From contig NW_003142672.1 of the NCBI RefSeq assembly GCF_000003605.2, positions 1 through 20,925 on the forward strand: a stretch of DNA of 20,925 bases. Reading direction: 5' to 3'. Source of the DNA: Saccoglossus kowalevskii. Taxonomy: Eukaryota > Hemichordata > Enteropneusta > Harrimaniidae. Below are positions 1 to 20,925 of this stretch, one piece after another; positions within the stretch are counted from its first letter, which is position 1, and each line of letters begins with the position of its first letter. The position numbers were made by a program, and so were the translations under genes. The notes below the pieces were generated by a model. It did not search any database. It was not told where the DNA came from and worked only from the letters and a program-made list of their open reading frames with translations.

Positions 1-132
1 AAGGAGGCGGCTTGCATTGCAAATTGAGTCATATCAATGCGCCTGTCTTGATAAGTTTGAGTTACACACTCATTACACATAAACATGCAACATTGACTGG
101 TTTGTCAAACATTAAAAATGACCTCTAGTGGA
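1..132. repeat. Partial repeat unit at the left edge
   Basis: The first bases are the end of a C-type tRNA relic (the aaggaggcggcttgc motif), followed by the usual flank leading to the first tRNA. The flank has the rarer variant tttgtcaaacattaaaaatgac, also present near 18922-18943, where other units have tatgtcaaac and aattctc. Nothing else is present. Confidence 0.9.
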
Positions 133-205
133 AGCCCCCTATGGGATTCGAACTAATGACCCCTGATTTACAAGACCAGTGCTCTAACCACTGAGCTAAG
201 GAGGC
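133..205 (-). tRNA. tRNA-Thr(UGU), T-stem decayed
   Basis: It is 73 nt, with anticodon TGT in the loop CTTGTAA. The acceptor GCCTCCT pairs with AGGGGGC as in the consensus. The 3' part of the anticodon stem is ATCAG, giving a G30-U40 wobble. The T-stem reads ATTAG against CCCAT, so two of five pairs are lost. The A box is intact, and a T5 run lies downstream on the minus strand. It is probably transcribed, but folding is doubtful. Confidence 0.75.
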
Positions 206-248
206 TAGTTGGACTCTTCAACATTCGTACGAAATTAAAATGAGTCAC

Positions 249-268
249 ATTAATATAAGCTTATTAAT
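249..268. repeat. AT-rich inverted repeat that marks the long (595-bp) unit form
   Basis: Arms ATTAATA and TATTAAT flank TAAGCT, and an inner ATAAGCTTAT palindrome lies at 255-264. Short units have only taatatgcttgtattgag here. The same insertion, intact or mutated, follows the tRNAs starting at 133, 728, 2474, 3648, 4487, 5663, 8003 and 18955, and it accounts for the 13-14 bp difference in period. Whether it was gained or lost is not decidable from this window. Confidence 0.85.
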
Positions 269-458
269 ACAAGCGTATAGAGTGGTTTCAGTGGTTTTCA
301 GACCGCAATTAACTATAGGAGTTGCCTCAATGAAAGTGAGAAATTGAGTTGAGTCAAAAAATTCGCTTGTCTTGATTGGTTTCAGTAACTCACTCATCGC
401 CCATAAACATACAACATTGGCTGGTTTGTTCATCCAAGATGGGAAATTAGCTGTAGGA

Positions 459-515
459 GTTGCCCTTATGAAATTCGAACTAATGGCCCCGCTATAACCA
501 CGGAGCTAAGGAGGC
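459..515 (-). pseudogene. Module B: tRNA-Thr relic without anticodon arm (representative; 35 copies)
   Basis: On the minus strand this begins GCCTCCTTAGCTC like the full tRNA, keeps an A box (TAGCTCCGTGG) and a T-loop/B box TTCGAAT, but lacks about 17 nt covering the anticodon arm. The 3' acceptor strand (AAGGGCA) no longer pairs well. Copies start at 459, 1054, 1628, 2204, 2798, 3379, 4223, 4813, 5395, 5989, 6571, 7151, 7735, 8322, 8903, 9459, 10040, 10621, 11184, 11764, 12345, 12908, 13471, 14053, 14628, 15207, 15781, 16360, 16941, 17523, 18105, 18686, 19281, 19862 and 20444. It cannot act as a tRNA. Whether its A and B boxes still attract TFIIIC is unknown. Confidence 0.85.
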
Positions 516-727
516 GGCTTGCAGCCTTGAAGATACCGTGTAGGAGTTGCCCCTAAGAAATTCGAAGTAATGGCTTCTGTCTTAACCACAGAGCTAAGGA
601 GGCGGCTTGCATTGCAAATTGAGTCATATCAATGCGCCTGTCTTGATAAGTTTGAGTTACACACTCATTACACATAAACATGCAACATTGACTGGTATGT
701 CAAACATTAAAAATTTTCTCTAGTGGT

Positions 728-800
728 AGCCCACTATGAGATTCGAACAAATGACCCCTGGTTTACAAGACCAGTGCTCTAACCACTGAGCTAAGGAGGC
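728..800 (-). tRNA. tRNA-Thr(UGU), weakened acceptor and T-stem
   Basis: It is 73 nt, with anticodon TGT and an intact anticodon arm. The 3' acceptor strand reads AGTGGGC, giving a 5-68 mismatch. The T-stem ATTTG against CTCAT has two mismatches. The same changes occur in the copy at 3067, so the two share ancestry. A T5 run is present downstream. Confidence 0.72.
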
Positions 801-1322
801 TAGTTGGACTCTTCAACATTCGTACGAAATTAAAATGAGTCACATTAATATAAGCTTATTAATACAAGCGTATAGAGTGGATTCAGTGGTTTTCAGACCG
901 CAATTAACTGTAGGAGTTGCCTCAATGAAAGTGAGAAATTGAGTTGAGTCAAAAAATTCGCTTGTCTTGATTGGTTTCAGTAACTCACTCATCGCCCATA
1001 AACATACAACATTGACTGGTTTGTTCATCCAAGATGGAAAATTAGCTGTAGGAGTTGCCCTTATGAAATTCGAACTAATGGCCCCGCTATAACCACGGAG
1101 CTAAGGAGGCGGCTTGCAGCCTTGAAGATACCGTGTAGGAGTTGCCCCTAAGAAATTCGAAGTAATGGCTTTTGTCTGAACCACAGAGCTAAGGAGGCGG
1201 CTTGCATTGCAAATTGACTCATATCAATGCGCCTGTCTTGATAAGTTTGAGTTACACACTCATTACACATAAACATGCAACATTGACTGGTATGTCAAAC
1301 ATTAAAAATTCTCTCTAGTGGA

Positions 1323-1395
1323 AGCCCCCTATGAGATTCGAACTCATGACCCCTGGTTTACAAGACCAGTGGTCTAACCACTGAGCTAAGGAGGC
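1323..1395 (-). tRNA. tRNA-Thr(UGU), D-stem mismatch
   Basis: It is 73 nt and matches the array consensus except that the D-stem reads GCTC against GACC, a C11-C24 mismatch. The acceptor, anticodon and T arms all pair. The downstream minus-strand T5 run is intact. This is the first unit of a block that recurs 13,000 bp away at 14323. Confidence 0.85.
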
Positions 1396-1896
1396 TAGTT
1401 GGACTCTTCAACATTCGTACGAAATTAAAATGAGTCACATTAATATGCTTGTATTGAGTGGTTTCAGTGGTTTTTAGACCGCAATTAACTGTAGGAGTTG
1501 CCCCAATGAAATTGAGTTGAGTCAAAAAATTCGCTTGTCTTGATTGGTTTCAGTAACTCATTCATCGCCCATAAACATACAACATTGACTGGTTTGTTCA
1601 TCCAAGATGGGGAAATTATCTGTAGTAGTTGCCCTTATGAAATTCGAACTCATGGCCCCACTATAACCACGGAGCTAAGGAGGCGGCTTGCAGCCTTCAA
1701 GCTACCGTGTAAGAGTTGCCCCTAAGAAATTCGAAGTAATGTCTTCTGTCTTAACCACAGAGCTAAGGAGGCGGCTTGCATTGCAAATTGACTCATATCA
1801 ATGCGCCTGTCTTGATAAGTTTGAGTTACTCACTCATTACACATAAACATGCAACATTGACTGGTATGTCAAACATTAGAAATTCTCTCTAGTGGA

Positions 1897-1969
1897 AGCT
1901 CCCTATGAGATTCGAACTCATGACCCCTGGTTTACAAGACCAGTGCTCTAACCACTGAGCTAAGGAGGC
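1897..1969 (-). tRNA. tRNA-Thr(UGU), C3-A70 mismatch, no terminator
   Basis: It is 73 nt and consensus except that the 3' acceptor strand is AGGGAGC, so pair 3-70 becomes C-A. The anticodon, D and T arms are intact. Downstream on the minus strand the usual TTTTT is broken to TTTCT, leaving no run of four T close by. Siblings at 14897 and 16050 share both changes. Confidence 0.8.
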
Positions 1970-2473
1970 TATTTGGACTCTAATATTCGTACGAAATTAA
2001 AATGAGTCACATTAATATGCTTGTATTGAGTGGTTTCAGTGGTTTTCAGACCGCAATTAACTGGAGTTGCCTCAATGAAAGTGAGAAATTGAGTTGAGTC
2101 AAAAAATTCGCTTGTCTTGATTGGTTTCAGTAACTCACTCATAGCCCATAAACATACAACATTGACTGGTTTGTTCATCCAAGATGGAAAATTAGCTGTA
2201 GGAGTTGCCCTTATGAAATTCGAACTCATGGCCCCCCGCTATAACCACGGAGCTAAGGAGGCGGCTTGTAGCCTTGATGATACCGTGTAGGAGTTGCCCC
2301 TGAGAAATTCGAAGTCATGGCTTCTATCTTAACCACAGAGCTAAAGAGGCGGCTTGCATTGCAAATTGAGTCATATCAATGCGCCTGTCTGGATAAGTTT
2401 GACTTACACACTCATAACACATAAACATGCAACATTGACTGGTATGTCAAACATTAAAATTTTCTCTAGTGGT

Positions 2474-2544
2474 AGCCCACTATGAGATCGACAAATGACC
2501 CATGGTTTACAAGACCAGTGCTCTAACCACTGAGCTAAGGAGGC
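2474..2544 (-). pseudogene. tRNA-Thr pseudogene, two bases lost in T-loop
   Basis: It is 71 nt. Two single-base losses in gagatcgaca destroy the T-loop and B box. It also carries the AGTGGGC acceptor mismatch and a change in the variable region. The neighbourhood has further single-base losses (only T4 in the terminator), so some damage may be read error rather than biology. Confidence 0.75.
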
Positions 2545-3066
2545 CTAGTGGGACTCTTCAACTTCGTACGAAATTAAAATGAGTCACATTAATATAAGCT
2601 TATTAATACAAGCGTATAGAGTGGATTCAGTGGTTTTCAGACCGCAATTAACTGTAGGAGTTGCCTCAATGAAAGTGAGAAATTGAGTTGAGTCAAAAAA
2701 TTCGCTTGTCTTGATTGGTTTCAGTAACTCACTCATCGCCCATAAACATACAACATTGACTGGTTTGTTCATCCAAGATGGAAAATTAGCTGTAGGAGTT
2801 GCCCTTATGAAATTCGAACTAATGGCCCCGCTATAACCACGGAGCTAAGGAGGCGGCTTGCAGCCTTGAAGATACCGTGTAGGAGTTGCCCCTAAGAAAT
2901 TCGAAGTAATGGCTTCTGTCTTAACCACAGAGCTAATGAGGCGGCTTGCATTGCAAATTGAGTCATATCAATGCGCCTGTCTTGATAAGTTTGAGTTACA
3001 CACTCATTACACATAAACATGCAACATTGACTGGTATGTCAAACATTAAAAATTCTCTCTAGTGGT

Positions 3067-3139
3067 AGCCCACTATGAGATTCGAACAAATGACCCCTGG
3101 TTTACAAGACCAGTGCTCTAACCACTGAGCTAAGGAGGC
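3067..3139 (-). tRNA. tRNA-Thr(UGU), weakened acceptor and T-stem
   Basis: It is 73 nt, with the same variant set as the copy at 728: 3' acceptor AGTGGGC with a 5-68 mismatch, and T-stem ATTTG against CTCAT. The anticodon arm and A box are consensus, and the T5 terminator is intact. Confidence 0.72.
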
Positions 3140-3647
3140 TAGTTGGACTCTTCAACATTCGTACGAAATTAAAATGAGTCACATTAATATGCTTGTATTG
3201 AGTGGTTTCAGTGGTTTTCAGACCGCAATTAACTGTAGGAGTTGCCTCAATGAAAGTGAGAAATTGAGTTGAGTCAAAAAATTCGCTTGTCTTGATTGGT
3301 TTCAGTAACTCACTCATCGCCCATAAACATACAACATTGACTGGTTTGTTCATCCAAGATGGAAAATTAGCTGTAGGAGTTGCCCTTATGAAATTCGAAC
3401 TCATGGCCCCGCTATAACCACGGAGCTAAGGAGACGGCTTGTAGCCTTGAAGATACCGTGTAGGAGTTGCCCCTAAGAAATTCGAAGTAATGGCTTCTGT
3501 CTTAACCACAGAGCTAAGGAGGCGGCTTGCATTGCAAATTGAGTCATATCAATGCGCCTGTCTTGATAAGTTTGAGTTACACACTCATTACACATAAACA
3601 TGCAACATTGACTGGTATGTCAAACATTAAAAATTCTTTCTGGTGGA

Positions 3648-3720
3648 AGCCCCCTACGAGATTCGAACTCATGACCCCTGGTTTACAAGACCAGTGCTCT
3701 AACCACTGAGCTAAGGATGC
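3648..3720 (-). tRNA. tRNA-Thr(UGU), A3-G70 mismatch
   Basis: It is 73 nt, with the 5' acceptor strand reading GCATCCT, so pair 3-70 is lost. The T-stem is kept through a T50-G64 wobble. The anticodon arm is consensus, and a T5 run lies downstream. It sits just left of the collapsed unit. Confidence 0.8.
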
Positions 3721-3910
3721 TGGTTGGACTCTTCAACATTCGCACGAAATTAAAATGAGTCATATTAATATAAGCATGTTAATACAAGCGTATTGAGTGG
3801 ATTCAGTGGTTTTCAGACCGCAATTAACTGTAGGAGTTGCCTCAATGAAAGTGAGAAATTGAGTTGAGTCAAAAAAAACGCTTGTCTTGATTGGTTTCAG
3901 TAACTCACTC

Positions 3911-3983
3911 ATCGCCCAATGCGATTCGAACTCATGACCCCTGGTTTACAAGACCAGTTTTCTAACCACAAGTCTAAGGAGGC
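3911..3983 (-). pseudogene. tRNA-Thr pseudogene at a deletion junction
   Basis: It has 73 nt of tRNA-like sequence with anticodon TGT, but the 3' acceptor strand is foreign flank (TGGGCGA) and leaves several unpaired positions. The D arm is altered (TAGACTTGTGG in place of TAGCTCAGTGG). The normal downstream terminator is absent because the left side derives from the middle of another unit. Confidence 0.8.
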
Positions 3984-4486
3984 TAGTTGGACTCTTCAAC
4001 ATTCGTACGAAATTAAAATGAGTCACATTAATATGCTTGTATTGAGTGGTTTCAGTGGTTTTCAGACCGCAATTAACTGTAGGAGTTGCCTCAATGAAAG
4101 TGAGAAATTGAGTTGAGTCAAAAAATTCGCTTGTCTTGATTGGTTTCAGTAACTCACTCATCGCCCATAAACATACAACATTGACTGGTTTGTTCATCCA
4201 AGATGGAAAATTAGCTGTAGGAGTTGCCCTTATGAAATTCGAACTCATGGCCCCGCTATAACCATGGAGCTAAGGAGACGGCTTGTAGTCTTGAAGATAC
4301 CGTGTAGGAGTCGCTCCTAAGAAATTCGAGTATGGCTTCTGTCTTACCACAGAGCTAAGGAGGCAGCTTGCATTGCAAATTGAGTCATATCAATGCGCCT
4401 GTCTTGATAAGTTTGAGTTACACACTCATTACACATAAACATGCAACATTGACTGGTATGTCAAACATTAAAAATTCTCTCCAGTA

Positions 4487-4559
4487 AGCCCCCTATGAGA
4501 TTCGAACTCATGACCCCTGGTTTACAAGAACAGTGCTCTACCCACTGAGCTAAGGAGGC
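4487..4559 (-). tRNA. tRNA-Thr(UGU), anticodon-stem mismatch
   Basis: It is 73 nt. The anticodon stem reads CTGTT against ACCAG, a T30-C40 mismatch. The D-loop carries GTGGGTAG. Acceptor and T arms are consensus, and the T5 run is intact. It heads a long-form unit. Confidence 0.78.
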
Positions 4560-5081
4560 TAGTTGGACTCTTTAACATTCGTACGAAATTAAAATGAGTC
4601 ACATTAATATAAGCATATTAATACAAGCGTATTGAATGGATTCAGTGGTTTTCAGACCGCAATTAACTGTAGGAGTTGCCTCAATGAAAGTGAGAAATTG
4701 AGTTGAGTCAAACAATTCGCTTGTCTTGATTGGTTTCAGTAACTCACTCATCGACCATAAACATACAACATTGACTGGTTTGTTCATCCAAGATGAAAAA
4801 TTAGCTGTAGGAGTTGCCCTTATGAAATTCGAACTCATGGCCCCGCTATAACCACAGAGCTACGGAGGTGGCTTGAAGCCTTGAAGATACCGTGTAGGAG
4901 TTGCCCCTAAGAAATTCGAAGTAATGGCTTCTGTCTTAACCACAGAGCTAAGGAGGCAGCTTGCATTGCAAATTGAGTCATATCAATGCGCCTGTCTTGA
5001 TAAGTTTGAGTTACACACTCATTACACATAAACATGCAACATTGACTGGTATGTCAAACATTAAAAATTCTCTCTAGTGGA

Positions 5082-5153
5082 AACCCCTATGAGATTCGAA
5101 CTCATGACCCCTGGTTTACAAGACCAGTGCTCTAACGACTGAGCTAAGGGGGC
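5082..5153 (-). pseudogene. tRNA-Thr(UGU) pseudogene, 72 nt, G18 lost
   Basis: One base is missing from the 3' acceptor strand and another is changed, so the acceptor cannot pair fully. The D-loop reads AGTCGTTA, replacing the invariant G18 that contacts position 55. The anticodon arm is intact. Copies at 6258 and 7421 share the G18 change. Confidence 0.7.
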
Positions 5154-5662
5154 TAGTTGGACTCTTCAACATTCGTACGAAATTAAAATGAGTCACATTA
5201 ATATGCTTGTATTGAGAGTGGTTTCAGTGGTTTTCAGACCGCAATTAACTGTAGGAGTTGCCTCAATGAAATTGAGAAATTGAGTTGAGTCAAAAAATTC
5301 GCTTGTCTTGATTGGTTTCCGTAACTCACTCATCGCCCATAAACATACAACATTGACTGGTTTGTTCATCCAAGATGGAAAATTAGCTGTAGGAGTTGCC
5401 CTTATGAAATTCGAACTCATGGCCCATCTATAACCACGGAGCTAAGGAGACGGCTTGTAGCCTTGAAAATACCGTGCAGAAGTTGCCCCTAAGAAATTCG
5501 AAGTAATGGATTCTGTTTTAACCACAGAGCTAAGGAGGCGACTTGATTGCAAATTGAGTCATATCAATGCGCCTGTCTTGATAAGTTTCAGTTACACACT
5601 CATTACACATAAACATGCAACATTGACTGGTATGTCAAACATTAAAAATTCTCTCTAGTGGT

Positions 5663-5735
5663 AGCCCCCTATGAGATTCGAACTCATGACCCCTGGTTTA
5701 CATGACCAGTGCACTAACCACTGAGCTAAGGAGGC
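5663..5735 (-). tRNA. tRNA-Thr(UGU), U33A and D-stem mismatch
   Basis: It is 73 nt, with anticodon loop CATGTAA, so the near-universal U33 is replaced by A next to an intact TGT anticodon. The D-stem 3' strand is GTGC, adding a mismatch. Acceptor and T arms pair. U33 is needed for the anticodon U-turn, so decoding is doubtful. Confidence 0.68.
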
Positions 5736-6257
5736 TACTTGGAATCTTCAACATTCGTACGAAATTAAAATGAGTCACATTAATATAAGCATATTAATAC
5801 AAGCGTATTGAGTGGATTCAGTGGTTTTCAGACCGCAATTAACTGTAGGAGTTGCCTCAATGAAAGTGAGAAATTGAGTTGAGTCAAAAAATTCGCTTGT
5901 CTTGATTGGTTTCCGTAACTCACTCATCGCCCATAAACATACAACATTGACTGGTTTGTTCATCCAAGATGGAAAATTGGCTGTAGGAGTTGCCCTTATG
6001 AAATTCGAACTCATGGCCCCGCTATAACCACGGAGCTAAGGAGGCGGCTTGTAGCCTTGAAGATACCGTGTAGGAGTTGCCCCTAAGAAATTCGAAGTAA
6101 TGGCTTCTGTCTTAACCACAGAGCTAAGGAGGCGGCTTGCATTGCAAATTGAGTCATATCAATGCGCCTGTCTTGATAAGTTTGAGTTACACACTCATTA
6201 CACATAAACATGCAACATTGACTGGTATGTCAAACATTAAAAATTCTCTCTAGTGGA

Positions 6258-6329
6258 AACCCCTATGAGATTCGAACTCATGACCCCTGGTTTACAAGAC
6301 CAGTGCTCTAACGACTGAGCTAAGGAGGG
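6258..6329 (-). pseudogene. tRNA-Thr(UGU) pseudogene, 72 nt
   Basis: It has the same one-base loss in the 3' acceptor and the same G18 change as the copy at 5082, and the first base of the tRNA is also changed. The anticodon arm and T arm look normal. A T5 run is present downstream. Confidence 0.7.
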
Positions 6330-6838
6330 TAGTTGGACTCTTCAACATTCGTACGAAATTAAAATGAGTCACATTAATATGCTTGTATTGAGAGTGGTTT
6401 CAGTGGTTTTCAGACCGCAATTAACTGTAGGAGTTGCCTCAATGAAAGTGAGAAATTGAGTTGAGTCAAGAAATTAGCTTGTCTTGATTGGTTTCAGTAA
6501 CGCACTCATCGCCCATAAACATACAACATTGACTGGTTTGTTCATCCAAGATGGAAAATTAGCTGTAGGAGTTGCCCTTATGAAATTCGAACAAATGGCC
6601 CCGCTACAACCACGGAGCTAAGGAGGCGGCTTGCAGCCTTGAAGATACCGTGTAGGAGTTGTCCCTAAGAAATTCGAAGTAATGGCTTCTGTCTTAACCA
6701 CAGAGCTAATGAGGCGGCTTGATTGCAAATTGAGTCATATCAATGCGCCTGTCTTGATAAGTTTCAGTTACACACTCATTACACATAAACATGCAACATT
6801 GACTGGTATGTCAAACATTAACAATTCTCTCTAGTGGC

Positions 6839-6911
6839 AGCCCCCTATGAGATTCGAACTCATGACTCCAGGTTTACAAGACCAGTGCTCTAACCACTGA
6901 GCTAAGGAGGC
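6839..6911 (-). tRNA. tRNA-Thr(UGU), anticodon-stem mismatch, no terminator
   Basis: It is 73 nt. The anticodon stem CTGGT against ACCTG has a T28-T42 mismatch, and the variable region is changed. Acceptor, D and T arms pair. The downstream T run is interrupted (attaacaattc on the plus strand), leaving no T4. Confidence 0.75.
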
Positions 6912-7420
6912 TAGTTGGATTCTTCAAAATTCGTACGAAATTAAAATGAGTCACATTAATATGCTTGTATTGAGTGGTTTCAGTGGTTTTCAGACCGCAA
7001 TTAACTGTAGGAGTTGCCTCAATGAAAGTGAGAAATTGAGTTGAGTCAAAAAATTCGCTTGTCTTGATTGGTTTCAGTAACTCACTCATCGCCCATAAAC
7101 ATACAACATTGACTGGTTTGTTCATCCAAGATGGGAAATTAGCTGTAGGAGTTGCCCTTTATGAAATTCGAACTCATGGCCCCGCTATAACCACAGAGCT
7201 AAGGAGGCAGCTTGTAGCCTTGAAGATACCCTGTAGGAGTTGCCCCTAAGAAATTCGAAGTAATGGCTTCTGTCTTAACCACAGAGCTAAGGAGGCGGCT
7301 TGCATTGCAAATTGAGTCATATCAATGCGCCTGTCTTGATAAGTTTGAGTTACACACTCATTACACATAAACATGCAACATTGACTGGTATGTCAAACAT
7401 TAAAAATTCTCTCTAGTGGT

Positions 7421-7493
7421 AGCCCCCTATGAGATTCGAACTCATGACCCCTGGTTTACAAGACCAGTGCTCTAACGACTGAACTAAGGAGGC
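7421..7493 (-). tRNA. tRNA-Thr(UGU), G18 lost
   Basis: It is 73 nt. The acceptor, anticodon and T arms are consensus. The D arm reads GTTC with loop AGTCGTTA, so pair 11-24 is a wobble and G18 is replaced by C, which also weakens the A box. The T5 run is intact. Confidence 0.75.
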
Positions 7494-8002
7494 TAGTTGG
7501 ACTCTTCAACATTCGTACGAAATTAAAATGAGTCACATTAATATGCTTGTATTGAGAGTGGTTTCAGTGGTTTTCAGACCGCAATTAACTGTAGGAGTTG
7601 CCGCAATGAAAGTGAGAAATTGAGTTGAGTCAAAAAATTCGCTTGTCTTGATTGGTTTCCGTAACTCACTCATCGCCCATAAACATACAACATTGACTGG
7701 TTTGTTCATCCAAGATGGAAAATTAGCTGTAGGAGTTGCCCTTATGAAATTCGAACTCATGGCCCATCTATAACCACGGAGCTAAGGAGACGGCTTGTAG
7801 CCTTGAAAATACCGTACAGGAGTTGCCCCTAAGAAATTCGAAGTAATGGATTCTGTTTTAACCACAGAGCTAAGGAGGCGACTTGATTGCAAATTGAGTC
7901 ATATCAATGCGCCTGTCTTGATAAGTTTCAGTTACACACTCATTACACATGAACATGCAACATTGACTGGTATGTCAAACATTAAAAATTCTCTCTAGTG
8001 GT

Positions 8003-8075
8003 AGGCCCCTATGAGATTCGAACTCATGACCCCTGGTTTACAAGACCAGTGCTCTAACCACTGAGCTAAGGAGGC
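8003..8075 (-). tRNA. tRNA-Thr(UGU), C2-C71 mismatch
   Basis: It is 73 nt and consensus except that the 3' acceptor strand is AGGGGCC, which loses pair 2-71. The terminator is intact. The leader to its right (8110-8240) has many single-base losses. Confidence 0.8.
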
Positions 8076-8590
8076 TATTTGGACTCTTCAACATTCGTAC
8101 GAAATTAAAATGAGTCACATTATTATAAGCATATTATACAGCGTATTGAGTGGATTCAGTGGTTTTCAGACAGCAATTAACTGTAGAGTGCTCAATGAAA
8201 GTGAGAAATTGAGTTGAGTCAAAAATTCGCTGTCTTGATTGGTTTCAGTAACTCACTCATCGCCCATAAACATACAACATTGACTGGTTTGTTCATCCAA
8301 GATGGAAAATTAGCTGTAGGAGTTGCCCTTATGAAATTCGAACTCATGGCCCCGCTATAACCACGGAGCTAAGGAGGCAGCTTGTAGCCTTGAAGATACC
8401 GTGTAGGAGTTGCACCTAAGAAATTCGAAGTAGTGGCTTCTGTCTTAACCAAAGAGCTAAGGAGGCGGCTTGCATTGCAAATTGAGTCATATCAATGCGC
8501 CTGTCTTGATAAGTTTGAGTTACACACTCATTACACATAAACATGCAACATTGACTGGTATGTCAAACATTAAAAATTCTCTCTAGCGGA

Positions 8591-8663
8591 AGCCCCTTAT
8601 GAGATTCGAACTCATGACCCCTGGTTTACAAGACCAGTGCTCTAACCACTGAGCTAAGGAGGC
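8591..8663 (-). tRNA. tRNA-Thr(UGU), C6-A67 mismatch
   Basis: It is 73 nt and consensus except that the 3' acceptor strand is AAGGGGC, losing pair 6-67. The D, anticodon and T arms, both boxes and the T5 run are intact. Confidence 0.83.
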
Positions 8664-9166: not shown

Positions 9167-9220
9167 AGCCCCTATGAGATTCGAACCCAGACCAGTGCTC
9201 TACCACTGAGCTAAGGAGGC
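9167..9220 (-). pseudogene. tRNA-Thr pseudogene lacking anticodon arm
   Basis: It is 54 nt. About 19 bases spanning the anticodon loop, variable region and part of the T-stem are gone (gaacccagaccagtg on the plus strand). The A-box region and acceptor are recognisable. It resembles the 55-nt copies at 10890, 12614 and 13177. Several single-base losses nearby suggest some read error. Confidence 0.85.
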
Positions 9221-10889: not shown

Positions 10890-10944
10890 AGCCCCCTATG
10901 AGATTCGAACCAGACCAGTGCTCTAACCACTGAGCTAAGGAGGC
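10890..10944 (-). pseudogene. tRNA-Thr pseudogene lacking anticodon arm
   Basis: It is 55 nt. About 18 bases including the anticodon are deleted, giving gaaccagaccagtg on the plus strand. The acceptor strands, A box and part of the T arm remain. The terminator run is intact, so a short transcript is conceivable. Identical copies lie at 12614 and 13177. Confidence 0.88.
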
Positions 10945-12105: not shown

Positions 12106-12613
12106 TAGTTGGACTCTTCAACATTCGTACGAAATTAAAATGAGTCACATTAATATGCTTGTATTGAGTGGTTTCAGTGGTTTTCAGACTGCAATTAACT
12201 GTAGGAGTTGCATCAATGAAAGTGAGAAATTGAGTTGAGTCAAAAAATTCGCTTGTCTTGATTGGTTTCAGTAACACACTCATCGCCCATAAACATACAA
12301 CATTGACTGGTTTGTTCATCCAAGATGGGAAATTAGCTGTAGGAGTTGCTCTTATGAAATTCGAACTCATGGCCCCGCTATAACCACAGAGCTAAGGAGG
12401 CGGCTTGTAGCCTTGAAGATACAGTGTAGGAGTTGCCCCTAATAAATTCGAAGTAATGGCTTCTGTCTTAACCACAGAGCTAAGGAGGCGGCTTGCATTG
12501 CAAATTGAGTCATATCAATGCGCCTGTCTTGATAAGTTTCAGTTACACACTCATTACACATAAACATGCAACATTGACTGGTATGTCAAACATTAAAAAT
12601 TCTCTCTAGTGAA

Positions 12614-12668
12614 AGCCCCCTATGAGATTCGAACCAGACCAGTGCTCTAACCACTGAGCTAAGGAGGC
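12614..12668 (-). pseudogene. tRNA-Thr pseudogene lacking anticodon arm
   Basis: It is 55 nt, with the same 18-base loss of the anticodon arm as at 10890. It lies in the second copy of the three-unit block. Confidence 0.88.
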
Positions 12669-13176
12669 TAGTTGGACTCTTCAACATTCGTACGAAATTA
12701 AAATGAGTCACATTAATATGCTTGTATTGAGTGGTTTCAGTGGTTTTCAGACTGCAATTAACTGTAGGAGTTGCATCAATGAAAGTGAGAAATTGAGTTG
12801 AGTCAAAAAATTCGCTTGTCTTCATTGGTTTCAGTAACACACTCATCGCCCATAAACATACAACATTGACTGGTTTGTTCATCCAAGATGGGAAATTAGC
12901 TGTAGGAGTTGCTCTTATGAAATTCGAACTCATGGCCCCGCTATAACCACAGAGCTAAGGAGGCGGCTTGTAGCCTTGAAGATACAGTGTAGGAGTTGCC
13001 CCTAAGAAATTCGAAGTAATGGCTTCTGTCTTAACCACAGAGCTAAGGAGGCGGCTTGCATTGCAAATTGAGTCATATCAATGCGCCTGTCTTGATAAGT
13101 TTCAGTTACACACTCATTACACATAAACATGCAACATTGACTGGTATGTCAAACATTAAAAATTCTCTCTAGTGAA

Positions 13177-13231
13177 AGCCCCCTATGAGATTCGAACCAG
13201 ACCAGTGCTCTAACCACTGAGCTAAGGAGGC
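13177..13231 (-). pseudogene. tRNA-Thr pseudogene lacking anticodon arm
   Basis: It is 55 nt, with the same deletion as at 10890 and 12614, so two truncated units stand next to each other here. The terminator run remains. Confidence 0.88.
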
Positions 13232-13740
13232 TAGTTGGACTCTTCAACATTCGTACGAAATTAAAATGAGTCACATTAATATGCTTGTATTGAGTGGTTT
13301 CAGTGGTTTTCAGACCGCAATTAACTGTTGGAGTTGCCTCAATGAAAGTGAGAAATTGAGTTGAGTAAAAAAATTCGCTTGTCTTGATTGGTTTCAGTAA
13401 CTCACTCATCGCCCATAAACATACAACATTGACTGGTTTGTTCATCCAAGATGGGAAATTAGCTGCAGGAGTTGCCCTTATGAAATTCTAACTCATGGCC
13501 CCCGCTATAACCACAGAGCTACGGAGGCGTCTTGTAGCCTTGAAGATACCGTGTAGGAGTTGCCCCTAAAAAATTCGAAGTAATGGCTTCTGTCTTAACC
13601 ACAGAGCTAAGGAGGCGGCTTGCATTGCAAATTGAGTCACATCAATGCGCCTGTCTTGATAAGTTTGAGTTACACACTCATTACACATAAACATGCAACA
13701 TTGACTGGTATGTCAAACATTAAAAATTCCCTCTAGTGGA

Positions 13741-13813
13741 AGCCGCCCATGAGATTCGAACTCATGATCCCTGGTTTACAAGACCAGTGCTCTAACCACT
13801 GAGCTAAGGAGGC
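13741..13813 (-). tRNA. tRNA-Thr(UGU), acceptor mismatch 4-69
   Basis: It is 73 nt. The 3' acceptor strand is GGGCGGC, giving a T4-C69 mismatch and a T7-G66 wobble. The variable region has one change. Anticodon and T arms are intact, as is the T5 run. Confidence 0.8.
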
Positions 13814-14303
13814 TAGTTGGACTCTTCAACATTCGTACGAAATTAAAATGAGTCACATTAATATGCTTGTATTGAGTGGTTTCAGTGGTTTTCAGACCGC
13901 AATTAACTGTAGGAGTTGCCTCAATGAAAGTGAGAAATTGAGTTGAGTCAAAAAATTCGCTTGTCTTGATTGGTTTCAGTAACTCACTCATCGCCCATAA
14001 ACATACAACATTGACTGGTTTGTTCATCCAAGATGGAAAATTAGCTGTAGGAGTTGCCCTTATGAAATTCGAACTCATGGCCCCCGCTATAACCACAGAG
14101 CTACGGAGGCGGCTTGTAGCCTTGAAGATACCGTGTAGGAGTTGCCCCTAAGAAATTCGAAGTAATGTCTTGTGTCTTAACCACAGAGCTAAGGAGGCGG
14201 CTTGCATTGCAAATTGACTCATATCAATGCGCCTGTCTTGATAAGTTTGAGTTACTCACTCATTACACATAAACATGCAACATTGACTGGTATGTCAAAC
14301 ATT

Positions 14304-14308
14304 AAAAA
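14304..14308 (-). terminator. Pol III T5 terminator (representative)
   Basis: It is a TTTTT run on the minus strand, 14 nt beyond the 3' end of the consensus tRNA at 14323. The same attaaaaatt motif on the plus strand follows most tRNAs of the array. It is broken at the units starting at 1897, 6839, 11452, 14897 and 16050. Confidence 0.85.
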
Positions 14309-14322
14309 TTCTCTCTAGTGGA

Positions 14323-14395
14323 AGCCCCCTATGAGATTCGAACTCATGACCCCTGGTTTACAAGACCAGTGCTCTAACCACTGAGCTAAGGAGGC
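14323..14395 (-). tRNA. tRNA-Thr(UGU), intact consensus copy
   Basis: It is a complete 73-nt cloverleaf. Acceptor GCCTCCT pairs with AGGGGGC with one 4-69 U-G wobble. The D-stem is GCTC/GAGC with loop AGTGGTTA. The anticodon stem CTGGT/ACCAG carries loop CTTGTAA, with TGT at 14360-14362 on the complement. The variable loop is GGGTC, the T-stem ATGAG/CTCAT with loop TTCGAAT, and the discriminator is U73. A box TAGCTCAGTGG and B box GTTCGAATC fit the Pol III consensus. No intron and no encoded CCA are seen. It is one of two copies with no deviation, and it charges threonine for ACA codons (and ACN by wobble). Confidence 0.95.
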
Positions 14396-14413
14396 TAGTT
14401 GGACTCTTCAACA

Positions 14414-14423
14414 TTCGTACGAA
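14414..14423. promoter_or_regulatory. Conserved upstream palindrome TTCGTACGAA (representative)
   Basis: This perfect 10-bp palindrome lies at -28 to -19 relative to the tRNA 5' end. It is present at the same distance in nearly every unit, including those whose tRNA is broken; the unit at 3648 has one change (ttcgcacgaa). Its position overlaps where TFIIIB normally contacts DNA, so a role in initiation is possible, but conservation inside a homogenised repeat is weak evidence. Confidence 0.5.
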
Positions 14424-14627
14424 ATTAAAATGAGTCACATTAATATGCTTGTATTGAGTGGTTTCAGTGGTTTTTAGACCGCAATTAACTGTAGGAGTTG
14501 CCCCAATGAAATTGAGTTGAGTCAAAAAATTCGCTTGTCTTGATTGGTTTCAGTAACTCATTCATCGCCCATAAACATACAACATTGACTGGTTTGTTCA
14601 TCCAAGATGGGGAAATTATCTGTAGTA

Positions 14628-14684
14628 GTTGCCCTTATGAAATTCGAACTCATGGCCCCACTATAACCACGGAGCTAAGGAGGC
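14628..14684 (-). pseudogene. Module B relic in the consensus-tRNA repeat
   Basis: It is a 57-nt tRNA-Thr-derived relic without an anticodon arm, with the block-specific change of cccgctat to cccactat. It keeps the 5' acceptor strand and the TTCGAAT T-loop. Confidence 0.8.
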
Positions 14685-14714
14685 GGCTTGCAGCCTTCAA
14701 GCTACCGTGTAAGA

Positions 14715-14772
14715 GTTGCCCCTAAGAAATTCGAAGTAATGTCTTCTGTCTTAACCACAGAGCTAAGGAGGC
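14715..14772 (-). pseudogene. Module C: second tRNA-Thr relic without anticodon arm (representative)
   Basis: It is 58 nt. On the minus strand it starts GCCTCCTTAGCTCTGTGGTT, so the 5' acceptor, D-stem region and A box are clear, and it ends in TTCGAATTTCTTAGGGGC, a T-loop and 3' acceptor. The anticodon arm is missing by about 16 nt. A copy lies about 87 bp after each module B start listed above. Its acceptor pairs better (GCCTCCT with TAGGGGC) than that of module B. Confidence 0.82.
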
Positions 14773-14896
14773 GGCTTGCATTGCAAATTGACTCATATCA
14801 ATGCGCCTGTCTTGATAAGTTTGAGTTACTCACTCATTACACATAAACATGCAACATTGACTGGTATGTCAAACATTAGAAATTCTCTCTAGTGGA

Positions 14897-14969
14897 AGCT
14901 CCCTATGAGATTCGAACTCATGACCCCTGGTTTACAAGACCAGTGCTCTAACCACTGAGCTAAGGAGGC
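14897..14969 (-). tRNA. tRNA-Thr(UGU), C3-A70 mismatch, no terminator
   Basis: The tRNA is identical to the copy at 1897: acceptor 3' strand AGGGAGC and all other arms consensus. The downstream run is TTTCT, so termination would fall far downstream. Confidence 0.8.
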
Positions 14970-15475
14970 TATTTGGACTCTAATATTCGTACGAAATTAA
15001 AATGAGTCATATTAATATGCTTGTATTGAGTGGTTTCAGTGGTTTTCAGACCGCAATTAACTGTAGGAGTTGCCTCAATGAAAGTGAGAAATTGAGTTGA
15101 GTCAAAAAATTCGCTTGTCTTGATTGGTTTCAGTAACTCACTCATCGCCCATAAACATACAACATTGACTGGTTTGTTCATCCAAGATGGAAAATTAGCT
15201 GTAGGAGTTGCCCTTATGAAATTCGAACTCATGGCCCCGCTATAACCACGGAGCTAAGGAGGCAGCTTGTAGCCTTGAAGATACCGTGTAGGAGTTGCCC
15301 CTAAGAAATTCGAAGTAATGGCTTTTGTCTGAACCACAGAGCTAAGGAGGCGGCTTGCATTGCAAATTGACTCATATCAATGCGCCTGTCTTGATAAGTT
15401 TGAGTTACACACTCATTACACATAAACATGCAACATTGACTGGTATGTCAAACATTAAAAATTCTCTCTAGTGGA

Positions 15476-15548
15476 AGCCCCCTATGAGATTCGAACTCAT
15501 GAGCCCTGGTTTACAAGACCAGTGCTCTAACCACTGAGCTAAGGAAGC
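15476..15548 (-). tRNA. tRNA-Thr(UGU), U3-G70 wobble
   Basis: It is 73 nt, with 5' acceptor GCTTCCT, so pair 3-70 is a wobble, and one change in the variable loop. The anticodon, D and T arms are intact, with a T5 run downstream. It is likely foldable. Confidence 0.83.
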
Positions 15549-16049
15549 TAGTTGGACTCTTCAACATTCGTACGAAATTAAAATGAGTCACATTAATATG
15601 CTTGTATTGAGTGGTTTCAGTGGTTTTTAGACCGCAATTAACTGTAGGAGTTGCCCCAATGAAATTGAGTTGAGTCAAAAAATTCGCTTGTCTTGATTGG
15701 TTTCAGTAACTCATTCATCGCCCATAAACATACAACATTGACTGGTTTGTTCATCCAAGATGGGGAAATTATCTGTAGTAGTTGCCCTTATGAAATTCGA
15801 ACTCATGGCCCCACTATAACCACGGAGCTAAGGAGGCGGCTTGCAGCCTTCAAGCTACCGTGTAAGAGTTGCCCCTAAGAAATTCGAAGTAATGTCTTCT
15901 GTCTTAACCACAGAGCTAAGGAGGCGGCGTGCATTGCAAATTGACTCATATCAATGCGCCTGTCTTGATAAGTTTGAGTTACTCACTCATTACACATAAA
16001 CATGCAACATTGACTGGTATGTCAAACATTAGAAATTCTCTTTAGTGGA

Positions 16050-16122
16050 AGCTCCCTATGAGATTCGAACTCATGACCCCTGGTTTACAAGACCAGTGCT
16101 CTAACCACTGAGCTAAGGAGGC
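16050..16122 (-). tRNA. tRNA-Thr(UGU), C3-A70 mismatch, no terminator
   Basis: This is a third copy of the 1897/14897 type, with acceptor 3' strand AGGGAGC and the TTTCT change in the terminator. The anticodon, D and T arms are consensus. Confidence 0.8.
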
Positions 16123-16628
16123 TAGTTGGACTCTAATATTCGTACGAAATTAAAATGAGTCACTTTAATATGCTTGTATTGAGTGGTTTCAGTGGTTTTC
16201 AGACCGCAATTAACTGTAGGAGTTGCCTCAATGAAAGTGAGAAATTGAGTTGAGTCAAAAAATTCGCTTGTCTTGATTGGTTTCAGTAACTCACTCATCG
16301 CCCATAAACATACAACAGTGACTGGTTTGTTCATCCAAGATGGAAAATTAGCTGTAGGAGTTGCCCTTATGAAATTCGAACTCATGGCCCCGCTATAACC
16401 ACGGAGCTAAGGAGGCAGCTTGTAGCCTTGAAGATACCGTGTAGGAGTTGCACCTAAGAAATTCGAAGTAGTGGCTTCTGTCTTAACCAAAAAGCTAAGG
16501 AGGCGGCTTGCATTGCAAATTGAGTCATATCAATGCGCCTGTCTTGATAAGTTTGAGTTACACACTCATTACAGATAAACATGCAACATTGACTGGTATG
16601 TCAAACATTAAAAATTCTCTCTAGTGGA

Positions 16629-16701
16629 AGCACCCTATGAGATTCGAACTCATGACCCCTGGTTCACAAGATCAGTGCTCTAACCGCTGAGCTAAGGAGG
16701 C
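16629..16701 (-). tRNA. tRNA-Thr(UGU), A37G and stem mismatches
   Basis: It is 73 nt, with anticodon loop CTTGTGA: the TGT anticodon is kept but position 37 is G. The anticodon stem CTGAT against ACCAG has an A-C mismatch, and the acceptor 3' strand AGGGTGC loses pair 3-70. The D-loop has one change. It is probably not a functional adaptor. Confidence 0.68.
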
Positions 16702-17210
16702 TAGTTGGACTCTTCAACATTCGTACGAAATTAAAATGAGTCACATTAATATGCTTGTATTGAGTGGTTTCAGTGGTTTTCAGACCGCAATTAACTGTAG
16801 GAGTTGCCTCAATGAAAGTGAGAAATTGAGTTGAATCAAAAAATTCGCTTGTCTTGATTGGTTTCAGTAACTCACTCATCGCCCATAAACATACAACATT
16901 GACTGGTTTGTTCATCCAAGATGGGAAATTAGCTGTAGGAGTTGCCCTTATGAAATTCGAACTCATGGCCCCCGCTATAACCACAGAGCTACGGAGGCGG
17001 CTTGTAGCCTTGAAGATACCGTGTAGGAGTTGCCCCTAAGAAATTCGAAGTAATGGCTTCTGTCTTAACCACAGAGCTAAGGAGGCGGCTTGCATTGCAA
17101 ATTGACTCATATCAATGCGCCTGTCTTGATAAGTTTGAGTTACACACTCATTACACATAAACATGCAACATTGACTGGTATGTCAAACATTAAAAATTCT
17201 CTCTAGTGGA

Positions 17211-17283
17211 AGCACCCTATGAGATTCGAACTCATGACCCCTGGTTCACAAGACCAGTGCTCTAACCACTGAGCTAAGGAGGC
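17211..17283 (-). tRNA. tRNA-Thr(UGU), A37G variant
   Basis: It is 73 nt, with loop CTTGTGA and G37 (complement of 17247). The acceptor has a C3-U70 mismatch. All other stems are consensus, and the T5 run is intact. Confidence 0.75.
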
Positions 17284-17792
17284 TAGTTGGACTCTTCAAC
17301 ATTCGTACGAAATTAAAATGAGTCACATTAATATGCTTGTATTGAGTGGTTTCAGTGGTTTTCAGACCGCAATTAACTGTAGGAGTTGCCTCAATGAAAG
17401 TGAGAAATTGAGTTGAGTCAAAAAATTCGCTTGTCTTGATTGGTTTCAGTAACTCACTCATCGCTCATAAACATACAACATTGACTGGTTTGTTCATCCA
17501 AGATGGGAAATTAGCTGTAGGAGTTGCCCTTATGAAATTCGAACTCATGGCCCCCGCTATAACCACAGAGCTACGGAGGCGGCTTGTAGCCTTGAAGATA
17601 CCGTGTAGGAGTTGCCCCTAAGAAATTCGAAGTAATGGCTTCTGTCTTAACCACAGAGCTAAGGAGACGGCTTGCATTGCAAATTGAGTCATATCAATGC
17701 GCCTGTCTTGATAAGTTTGAGTTACACACTCATTACACATAAACATGCAACATTGACTGGTATGTCAAACATTAAAAATTCTCTCCAGTGGA

Positions 17793-17865
17793 AGCACCCT
17801 ATGAGATTCGAACTCATGACCCCTGGTTCACAAGACCAGTGCTCTAACCACTGAGCTAAGGAGGC
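17793..17865 (-). tRNA. tRNA-Thr(UGU), A37G variant
   Basis: It has the same tRNA sequence as the copy at 17211: G37 beside anticodon TGT and a C3-U70 mismatch. The terminator run is intact. Confidence 0.75.
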
Positions 17866-18374
17866 TAGTTGGACTCTTCAACATTCGTACGAAATTAAAA
17901 TGAGTCACATTAATATGCTTGTATTGAGTGGTTTCAGTGGTTTTCAGACCGCAATTAACTGTAGGAGTTGCCTCAATGAAAGTGAGAAATTGAGTTGAGT
18001 AAAAAAAAACGCTTGTCTTGATTGGTTTCAGTAACTCACTCATCGCCCATAAACATACAACATTGACGGGTTTGTTCATCCAAGATGGGAAATTAGCTGT
18101 AGGAGTTGCCCTTATGAAATTCGAACTCATGGCCCCCGCTATAACCACAGAGCTGCGGAGGCGGCTTGTAGCCTTGAAGATACCGTGTAGGAGTTGCCCC
18201 TAAGAAATTCGAAGTAATGGCTTCTGTCTTAACCACAGAGCTAAGGAGGCGGCTTGCATTGCAAATTGACTCATATCAATGCGCCTGTCTTGATAAGTTT
18301 GAGTTACACACTCATTACACATAAACATGCAACATTGACTGGTATGTCAAACTTTAAAAATTCTCTCTAGTGGA

Positions 18375-18447
18375 AGCCCCCTATGAGATTCGTACTCATG
18401 ACCCCTGGTTTACAAGACCAGTGCTCTAACCACTGAGCTAAGGAGGC
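18375..18447 (-). tRNA. tRNA-Thr(UGU), U55A T-loop change
   Basis: It is 73 nt and consensus except that the T-loop is TACGAAT, so U55 (normally pseudouridine, pairing with G18) is A and the B box is altered at an important position. All stems pair. The terminator is intact. Confidence 0.75.
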
Positions 18448-18954
18448 TAGTTGGACTCTTCAACATTCGTACGAAATTAAAATGAGTCACATTAATATGC
18501 TTGTATTGAGTGGTTTCAGTGGTTTTCAGACCGCAATTAACTATAGGAGTTGCCTCAATGAAAGTGAGAAATTGAGTTGAGTCAAAAAAACGCTTGTCTT
18601 GATTGGTTTCAGTAACTCACTCATCGCCCATAAACATACAACATTGACTGGTTTGTTCATCCAAGATGGAAAATTAGCTGTAGGAGTTGCCCTTATGAAA
18701 TTCGAACTCATGGCCGCGCTATAACCACGGAGTTAAGGAGGCGGCTTGTAGCCTTGAAGATACCGTGTAGGAGTTGCCCCTAAGAAATTCGAAGTAATGG
18801 CTTCTGTCTTAACCACAGAGCTAAGGAGGCGGCTTGCATTGCAAATTGAGTCATATCAATGCGCCTGTCTTGATAAGTTTGAGTTACACACTCATTACAC
18901 ATAAACATGCAACATTGACTGGTTTGTCAAACATTAAAAATGACCTCTAGTGGA

Positions 18955-19027
18955 AGCCCCCTATGAGATTCGAACTCATGACCCCTGATTTACAAGACCA
19001 GTGCTCTAACCACTGAGCTAAGGAGGC
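18955..19027 (-). tRNA. tRNA-Thr(UGU), near-intact
   Basis: It is 73 nt. The only change is C40 to U, giving a G30-U40 wobble in the anticodon stem, shared with the first copy at 133. The acceptor, D and T arms, A and B boxes and a T5 run are intact. It is likely functional. It heads a long-form unit. Confidence 0.9.
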
Positions 19028-19530
19028 TAGTTGGACTCTTCAACATTCGTACGAAATTAAAATGAGTCACATTAATATAAGCTTATTAATACAAGCGTAT
19101 AGAGTGGATTCAGTGGTTTTCAGACCGCAATTAACTGTAGGAGTTGCCTCAATGAAAGTGAAAAATTGAGTTGAGTCAAAAAATTCGCTTGTCTTGATTT
19201 TTTTCAGTAACTCACTCATCGCCCATAAACATACAACATTGACTGGTTTGTTCATCCAAGATGGAAAATTAGCTGTAGGAGTTGCCCTTATGAAATTCGA
19301 ACTCATGGCCCCGCTATAACCACGGAGCTAAGGAGGCGGCTTGTAGCCTTGAAGATACCGTGTAGGAGTTGCCCTTAAGAAATTCGAAGTAATGGCTTCT
19401 GTCTGAACCACAGAGCTAAGGAGGCGGCTTGCATTGCAAATTGACTCATATCAATGCGCCTGTCTTGATAAGTTTGAGTTACACACTCATTACACATAAA
19501 CATGCAACATTGACTGGTATGTCAAACATT

Positions 19531-19535
19531 AAAAA
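19531..19535 (-). terminator. Pol III T5 terminator of the second consensus tRNA
   Basis: It is a TTTTT run on the minus strand, 14 nt past the 3' end of the tRNA at 19550-19622. Confidence 0.85.
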
Positions 19536-19549
19536 TTCTCTCTAGTGAA

Positions 19550-19622
19550 AGCCCCCTATGAGATTCGAACTCATGACCCCTGGTTTACAAGACCAGTGCT
19601 CTAACCACTGAGCTAAGGAGGC
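19550..19622 (-). tRNA. tRNA-Thr(UGU), intact consensus copy
   Basis: The tRNA gene is identical to 14323-14395: all four stems pair, the loop is CTTGTAA with anticodon TGT, the T-loop is TTCGAAT, and the discriminator is U73. The T5 terminator is in place. With 14323 it is the best candidate for a working gene. Confidence 0.95.
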
Positions 19623-19861
19623 TAGTTGGCCTCTTCAACATTCGTACGAAATTAAAATGAGTCACATTAATATGCTTGTATTCAGTGGTTTCAGTGGTTT
19701 TCAGACCGCAATTAACTGTAGGAGTTGCCTCAATGAACGTGAGAAATTTAGTTGAGTCAAAAAATTCGCTTGTCTTGATTGGTTTCAGTAACTCACTCAT
19801 CGCCCATAAACATACAACATTGACTGGTTTGTTCATCCAAGATGGGAAATTAGCTGTAGGA

Positions 19862-19919
19862 GTTGCCCTTATGAAATTCGAACTCATGGCCCCCGCTATA
19901 ACCACAGAGCTACGGAGGC
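19862..19919 (-). pseudogene. Module B relic (representative, right end)
   Basis: It is 58 nt here because of one extra C in ggcccccgc. It keeps the TTCGAAT T-loop and the 5' acceptor region, with a change (tacggaggc) shared with several units from 11184 on. It has no anticodon arm. Confidence 0.8.
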
Positions 19920-19949
19920 GGCTTGTAGCCTTGAAGATACCGTGTAGGA

Positions 19950-20007
19950 GTTGCCCCTAAGAAATTCGAAGTAATGGCTTCTGTCTTAACCACAGAGCTA
20001 AGGAGGC
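19950..20007 (-). pseudogene. Module C relic (representative, right end)
   Basis: It is a 58-nt relic with A-box-like TAGCTCTGTGG and T-loop TTCGAAT but no anticodon arm. It sits 30 bp after module B, as in the other units. Confidence 0.8.
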
Positions 20008-20131
20008 GGCTTGCATTGCAAATTGAGTCATATCAATGCGCCTGTCTTGATAAGTTTGAGTTACACACTCATTACACATAAACATGCAACATTGACTGGT
20101 ATGTCAAACATTAAAAATTCTTTCTAGCGGA

Positions 20132-20204
20132 AGCCCCCTATGAGATTCGAACTCACGACCCCTGGTTTACAAGACCAGTGCTCTAACCACTGAGCTAAGG
20201 AGGC
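20132..20204 (-). tRNA. tRNA-Thr(UGU), near-intact
   Basis: It is 73 nt. The single change is A49 to G, which pairs with U65 as a wobble. Other stems, loops and both promoter boxes are consensus, and the T5 run is present. It is likely functional. Confidence 0.9.
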
Positions 20205-20712
20205 TAGTTGGACTCTTCAACATTCGTACGAAATTAAAATGAGTCACATTAATATGCTTGTATTGAGTGGTTTCAGTGGTTTTCAGACCGCAATTAACTG
20301 TAGGAGTTGCCTCAATGAAAGTGAGAAATTGAGTTGAGTCAAAAAATTCGCTTGTCTTGATTGGTTTCAGTAACTCACTCATCGCCCATAAACATACAAC
20401 ATTGACTGGTTTGTTCATCCAAGATGGAAAATTAGCTGTAGGAGTTTCCCTTATGAAATTCGAACTCATGGCCCCGCTATAACCACGGAGCTAAGGAGGC
20501 GGCTTGTAGCCTTGAAGATACCGTGTAGGAGTTGCCCCTAAGAAATTCGAAGTAATGGCTTCTGTCTGAACCACAGAGCTAAAGAGGCGGCTTGCATTGC
20601 AAATTGACTCATATCAATGCGCCTGTCTTGATAAGTTTGAGTTACACACTCATTACACATAAACATGCAACATTGACTGGTATGTCAAACATTAAAAATT
20701 CTCTCTAGTGGA

Positions 20713-20785
20713 AGCCCCCTATGAGATTCGAACTCATGACCCCTGGTTTACAAGACCGGTGCTCTAACCACTGAGCTAAGGAGGC
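20713..20785 (-). tRNA. tRNA-Thr(UGU), C28-A42 mismatch
   Basis: It is 73 nt. The anticodon stem reads CCGGT against ACCAG, losing pair 28-42. Everything else is consensus, with the terminator intact. The leader to its right shares ttggcctcttc and atgaacgtgag with the unit at 19550, so a two-unit (about 1,163 bp) repeat begins here. Confidence 0.85.
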
Positions 20786-20925
20786 TAGTTGGCCTCTTCA
20801 ACATTCGTACGAAATTAAAATGAGTCACATTAATATGCTTGTATTCAGTGGTTTCAGTGGTTTTCAGACCGCATTAACTGTAGAGTTGCCTCATGAACGT
20901 GAGAATTGAGTTGAGTCAAAAATTC
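20786..20925. repeat. Partial repeat unit at the right edge, with many one-base losses
   Basis: This is the leader of the next unit, cut by the window end before module B. From about 20870 on, doublets and homopolymers are each one base short relative to the other units (ccgcattaac, gtagagttg, ctcatgaac, gagaattg). This looks like low-quality sequence. Confidence 0.85.

Follow-up and report, generated by a model that had tools for sequence, protein, structure and literature searches.

We analyzed a 20,925-nt stretch of Saccoglossus kowalevskii DNA (contig NW_003142672.1, positions 1 to 20,925 of the forward strand; hereafter the window) that is occupied by head-to-tail copies of a repeat bearing a transfer RNA (tRNA) gene for threonine, tRNA-Thr(UGU). 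The array is probably a satellite derived from a tRNA-Thr(UGU) gene in a eukaryotic nuclear genome, homogenized by unequal exchange and retaining a minority of structurally intact genes. In the history that we propose, a tRNA gene would have been duplicated together with its 3′ flank, older copies would have lost the anticodon arm or been truncated to give a composite of four parts (A-B-C-D), and the composite would then have been amplified head to tail. Unequal exchange and short conversion tracts, a process that we infer from traces observed among the units, would have kept the units alike.

In the sequence at hand, the window is a genuine tandem array. Using BLAST (E 1e-10), matches to a consensus unit of ~581 bp covered 20,922 of the 20,925 bases, exclusively on the minus strand. 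A 73-nt tRNA query detected 37 tRNA starts across the window, and the 36 spacings between them had a median of 581 bp and a range of 557-595 bp, with a single outlier of 263 bp. Both ends of the window cut through the array. These results bear out an earlier note on this DNA, which had described more than 20 kb of one repeat only, in a single orientation, with a period of about 580 bp and open at both ends. A coding reading of the unit was rejected, as the longest open stretch in the tandem consensus is only 107 codons; with nearly every base in a long head-to-tail array of a noncoding unit on one strand, the window has the makeup of satellite DNA. Tandem Repeats Finder, for which the longest period handled was 500 bp, returned no rows for the window.

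Not every repeat unit contains a recognizable tRNA. ARAGORN called 31 tRNA-Thr(TGT) genes, on the minus strand throughout, and 32 of the 37 copies were above the Rfam gathering score for tRNA. The TGT anticodon of the array tRNA pairs with ACA, a threonine codon. The six starts missed by ARAGORN consist of four copies in which the anticodon arm is deleted (u14, u15, u18, and u21); u30, a hybrid; and u33, which has small deletions and a Rfam score of 37.5 bits. The earlier description of 37 tRNA-Thr(UGU) repeats is therefore accurate for repeat units, whereas callable tRNAs number 31-32. The window also fits a eukaryotic tandem tRNA gene (tDNA) cluster, defined in one study as containing tRNA genes only, usually spaced at less than 1 kb, often closely related and specific for one or two amino acids (PMC10701932). 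Spacing between callable tRNAs is greater than 1 kb wherever damaged copies intervene.

The unit itself is a composite. Read on the tRNA strand, unit positions 1-73 are a complete tRNA, followed 14 nt later by a T5 run at positions 88-92. When the consensus was compared with itself, positions 1-182 matched 286-452, 192-262 matched 280-349, 466-494 matched 328-356, and 509-556 matched 415-461. The unit can be read as four monomers: A (1-191), which is complete; B (192-279), a tRNA relic; C (280-465), a relic plus body; and D (466-581), a fragment. Both relics lack the anticodon arm. In the consensus, the identity between monomers A and C is 82% across 170 aligned bases, such that 18% differ; this figure counts aligned bases only and becomes 71.5% if gaps are included. 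Because divergence is old inside the unit (18% between A and C) and recent between units (~5%), the structure represents higher-order satellite layering, in which diverged monomers (82% identity) are nested in near-identical units (95%). The layering is irregular, since B and D are truncated.

Units also fall into two length classes. An insertion or deletion at unit position 521, involving up to 14 alignment columns, separates units of 594-595 bp from those of ~580 bp. All 14 columns are present in 6 of 35 units and 12 are present in u22, with the carriers scattered over the array.

We compared the units with one another. Mean pairwise identity was 95.2% (36 units, hybrid included) and was nearly flat with distance, at 0.9525 for units one apart and 0.9488 for units nineteen apart. 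Thus, as in a satellite, units are alike across the array, judged within this single array. Units u11 and u34 are identical although 23 places apart; they lie inside the longest exact repeat, whose 637 bp is thus the upper limit for a block copied without change. As a measure of exchange, we determined the share of pairs among 48 informative sites at which all four combinations of bases occur. This share was 3% for sites less than 30 bp apart (123 pairs), 13% at 30-100 bp (222 pairs), 20% at 100-250 bp (406 pairs), and 33% beyond 250 bp (377 pairs). The rise is a trace of exchange or conversion within units, and mosaic mis-assembly could leave the same trace. Together, the tandem arrangement, single orientation, likeness of units across the array and higher-order layering uphold the term "satellite-like" used in the earlier note.

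Mis-assembly, in which reads from dispersed or smaller repeat clusters were chained into one contig, would also accommodate the identical distant units u11 and u34, the mosaic variants and a window that contains no unique sequence. We nevertheless consider it a poor candidate. Units differ by ~5%, which long reads should be able to separate, and variation is structured along the unit; neither feature excludes a mosaic made from short reads.

The tRNAs within the units are frequently damaged. We scored 36 copies, comprising the 35 full units plus the tRNA from u37, the last unit, which is partial; u30 was excluded. Two copies match the consensus, and five more keep all stem pairs and the listed invariant positions (the list was taken from general knowledge). 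At least one broken pair or altered invariant base is present in 22 copies and deletions are present in seven, such that 29 of 36 aligned copies have one or another of these defects. In hybrid u30, the 3′ end of the tRNA is missing and the remaining 69 nt contain 8 mismatches. The consensus tRNA is structurally perfect, with every stem paired and a Rfam score of 72.9 bits. The earlier characterization of the array as homogeneous and single-tRNA must be revised, as each unit also contains two tRNA relics and a fragment, and most of the tRNAs are damaged.

Loss of the anticodon arm occurs in four current copies and in both old relics. The same deletion is found in u14, u15, and u18.

We also scored signals for RNA polymerase III (Pol III). 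Exact strings were kept in 32 of the 37 copies for the A-box, 35 for the B-box and 32 for a run of at least four Ts (31 when scored in a slightly narrower stretch). All three were kept in 25 copies, and 16 also have the exact anticodon loop string. Because the A-box, B-box, and T run are retained in many copies, many could recruit Pol III. A satellite with this makeup would still bear Pol III promoter and terminator signals, and a minority of its copies could make normal tRNA.

Neither a substitution test nor diversity detected purifying selection on the tRNA body among the array copies, which thus differ from a functional tRNA gene family. Among 41 distinct tRNA substitutions, 25 break a pair or invariant base, compared to 23.8 expected from random placement (standard deviation 2.7). 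Had selection eliminated one in two breaking changes, the expectation would be 16.8 (P = 0.0075 for a count of at least 25). Breaking changes were close to the random expectation both for singleton substitutions (19 of 30, 18.0 expected) and for substitutions shared by at least two copies (6 of 11, 5.8 expected). The shared set alone argues against removal of three-quarters of breaking changes (P = 0.018). Diversity was 0.047 in the tRNA versus 0.039 in the whole unit, 0.045 in relic B and 0.051 in relic C. In a previous alignment, variability equal to or below that of the tRNA was found in 246 of the 436 other 73-column blocks. Conversion from relics B or C into the A tRNA and its flank was examined and found no support as a source of variants, as 5 of 13 variants have the relic base and 4.7 are expected.

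Several observations weigh against an array of unconstrained, uniformly homogenized copies. The singleton substitutions may be sequencing errors, and the shared set, taken alone, is compatible with selection having removed one in two breaking changes (P = 0.17). A few substitutions adjoining deletions depend on the alignment. A tRNA may tolerate one mismatch: the Rfam gathering score is exceeded by 32 of 37 copies, and 25 of 37 keep the Pol III signals. Between monomers A and C, identity is 92% in the 5′ part of the tRNA and 87% in the 3′ part, falls to 60% in the next 20 bp and is 79-86% in the body, depending on the segment, a pattern compatible with what past selection on the gene would leave. 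Moreover, with a perfect consensus beside old relics, selection or repeated spread from an intact copy must have preserved A over the longer term. Given the higher A-C identity of the tRNA parts and the perfect consensus tRNA, the gene was probably under past selection, or the array was repeatedly seeded by intact copies. Finally, homogenization falls short of complete uniformity over the array. Near neighbors make up several of the pairs with the highest identity (u14-u15, u6-u7, and u9-u11), and the maximum identity by lag drops from 0.996 to about 0.98, indicating that local duplication also acts.

Some of these observations would also be expected of a working tRNA-supply locus, in which many copies are transcribed to tRNA-Thr(UGU) in some tissue at least, comparable to the root-tip expression of an Arabidopsis cluster described below. 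The consensus tRNA is intact, most copies score as tRNA and keep Pol III signals, and A and C are more alike in their tRNA parts than in the body. In addition, variation is raised in the tRNA and in the 3′ flank up to the terminator and drops thereafter, and this flank has the lowest A-C identity of any part. Transcription-associated mutagenesis, as reported for tRNA flanks (PMC8113476), could account for the high variation before the terminator. However, the same source describes very low variation in tRNA gene bodies despite mutable flanks; in the array, the tRNA body is not below the unit mean, and the 5′ flank has no excess diversity (0.029). Variation in relics B and C and in the B tail is similar to or above that of the complete gene, and so the pattern is not special to that gene. 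As the structure-breaking changes also show no constraint, we regard a supply locus as unlikely. The earlier note had raised the question of whether the array serves tRNA supply or chromatin organization or is a selfish satellite. Because there is no detectable constraint, supply from every copy is disfavored, as is dedicated supply from the array. A self-expanding satellite is the best fit.

We next consider variation along the unit, which we profiled in an alignment of 35 units. The hybrid was left out; when it was included, the C tail (unit positions 341-480) was at 0.043 rather than 0.027. Unit positions 94-191, the body of monomer A, had 14 variable columns of 98, compared to 188 of 581 in the whole unit (Fisher p = 1.6e-5), and singleton columns were also fewer there (10 of 98, p = 0.0019). 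Variation was above average in the tRNA (33 of 73 columns, p = 0.016), the stretch to the terminator (12 of 20, p = 0.013) and the B tail (14 of 24, p = 0.012). These p-values are optimistic, since nine segments were compared without correction and their limits were set after the profile was seen. A column-shuffle test gave 0.0065 for the least variable 100-column window. This 98-bp body, which follows the Pol III terminator-like run, also varies less than the tRNA does.

One explanation for the low variation at 94-191 is that the array is a chromatin element, such as a boundary, a centromere or another structural array. The selected part would be TFIIIC binding or the 98-bp body, and the tRNA product would be irrelevant. 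A tandem tDNA repeat has been implicated as a boundary in human (PMC4041453). However, a conserved box common to the A and C bodies was not supported (permutation P 0.75 for the tail and 0.95 overall), and the window holds no genomic context. Recent homogenization may also explain the low variation in a segment whose limits followed from the profile. On balance, a chromatin element seems improbable. We place little credence in a related possibility, that the array is a higher-order satellite from a tRNA-Thr gene in which the tRNA would be a disposable passenger and the 98-bp body would be selected, for example as a centromeric or boundary binding platform.

CpG dinucleotides are depleted over the window (observed/expected 0.56), TG and CA are in excess, and the 28 CpG columns vary more than columns elsewhere (0.078 versus 0.037), as would be expected of CpG-methylated DNA. 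CpG decay was rejected as the cause of the differences between segments, as the tRNA and the A body hold one CpG each.

Table 1. Features of the tRNA-Thr array. Positions are those of the window; unit positions are given in parentheses.
Feature	Position	Strand	Basis
Tandem array of ~581-bp tRNA-Thr unit, 37 tRNA starts, open at both ends	1..20925	-	tRNA query and consensus BLAST
Example unit u12, 582 bp, tRNA matches consensus	13814..14395	-	tRNA query, unit alignment
Intact tRNA-Thr(UGU) of u12, 72.9 bits	14323..14395	-	Rfam
T5 run resembling a Pol III terminator, 14 nt beyond the tRNA 3′ end (88-92)	14304..14308	-	Consensus reading
Monomer A body (94-191), least variable segment	14205..14302	-	Column variability
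Monomer B, tRNA relic lacking anticodon arm and body	14117..14204	-	Self-comparison, tRNA query
Monomer C, body and a tRNA relic without anticodon arm, 82% identity to A	13930..14116	-	Self-comparison
Monomer D, fragment resembling the bodies of C and A and the end of the C relic	13814..13929	-	Self-comparison
u14 tRNA lacking anticodon arm	13177..13231	-	tRNA query, alignment
u15 tRNA lacking anticodon arm	12614..12668	-	tRNA query, alignment
u18 tRNA lacking anticodon arm	10890..10944	-	tRNA query, alignment
u21 tRNA lacking anticodon arm, ends approximate	9169..9220	-	tRNA query, alignment
Hybrid u30, 263 bp, head of A tRNA (69 nt, 88%) joined to C tail and D (398-579)	3721..3983	-	Consensus BLAST

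The window, which is array throughout, contains no dispersed copy of the kind that, with a LINE-like or A-rich tail and target-site duplications, would mark a tRNA-derived SINE. Exact-match searches of viral and prokaryote contig collections, from which records of the source genome may be excluded, gave no hits for two patterns, one of 44 bases from the tRNA and one of 24 bases from the body. A distant search of window positions 1-3000 against phages matched 65 records at 60-90% identity. Among 20 matches listed, which cover at most 9%, 14 fell on annotated tRNA genes and six on nothing annotated. Megablast of positions 1-2000 against plasmids gave no match. At the gathering threshold, Rfam reported only tRNA in the whole window, and at a loose threshold no second family exceeded its gathering score in positions 14000-15200. 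Two sub-threshold matches to the plastid ycf2 5′ untranslated region were obtained on the plus strand at 14322-14395 and 14896-14969 (28.6 and 26.8 bits; gathering score 65.7) and are probably a chance likeness to the tRNA complement. In the literature, no title among the matches listed named a tRNA-Thr satellite, in a search whose scope mostly excluded subscription papers.

The array has implications for how tRNA genes are counted. Such counts are often taken to reflect translational demand. Since 32 of 37 copies pass the tRNA model yet show no detectable constraint, these counts can instead reflect satellite copy number.

Pol III-transcribed satellites, such as Xenopus satellite I, are tandem and have a tRNA-type promoter but are not known to contain a complete tRNA. 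Tandem tRNA genes are also known, and the earlier view of the array as unusual is only partly right: Arabidopsis has tandem tDNA clusters for one or two isoacceptors that include damaged copies (PMC10701932; PMC12308677), and tandem tRNA arrays occur in Entamoeba (PMC2652664) and human (PMC4041453). In the human genome, the variable number tandem repeat at 1q23.3 is also a tRNA-bearing tandem repeat. It consists of 9-43 copies of a 7.3-kb unit with five tRNA genes and binds CTCF, and it differs from our array in that tRNA genes make up less than 6% of the unit (PMC4041453). In Entamoeba histolytica, almost all tRNA genes lie in arrays built from 25 distinct units, each with five tRNA genes at most. 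Such Entamoeba arrays are thought to be homogenized by concerted evolution; complex short tandem repeats lie between the tRNA genes in E. histolytica and E. dispar (PMC2652664). These are likewise tandem tRNA arrays, and one unit, [H GTG], seems to carry only one type of tRNA (PMC2652664).

The nearest described loci that we found are the Arabidopsis tDNA clusters. The SYY (Ser-Tyr-Tyr) cluster has 27 tandem units in almost 40 kb with no other annotated genes (PMC10701932). It is inactive in the majority of tissues but becomes active again in root tips, and 13 of its 54 clustered Tyr genes give tRNA-like RNAs (PMC12308677). SYY differs from the present array in being from a plant and in having one Ser and two Tyr genes per unit. 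As "tRNA-like" there and "broken" here are different criteria, the two shares are not directly comparable. In the tRNA-Cys cluster on A. thaliana chromosome 5, 4-6 tandem units of ~420 bp are 84-94% identical and adjoin a pseudogene, a significant number of repeats have fold-upsetting substitutions, and copy number varies by whole units (PMC10701932). This cluster is apparently, and incompletely, silenced. It resembles our array in having a single isoacceptor, tandem units and damaged copies. It differs in size, with 4-6 units compared to 37 starts here, and the available text does not mention relics within its unit. The present array belongs with these loci; it is longer than the Cys cluster, its unit contains relics and its copies show no detectable constraint. 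We regard it as standing midway from a tDNA cluster to a satellite, and the relics within each unit record how the array was formed.

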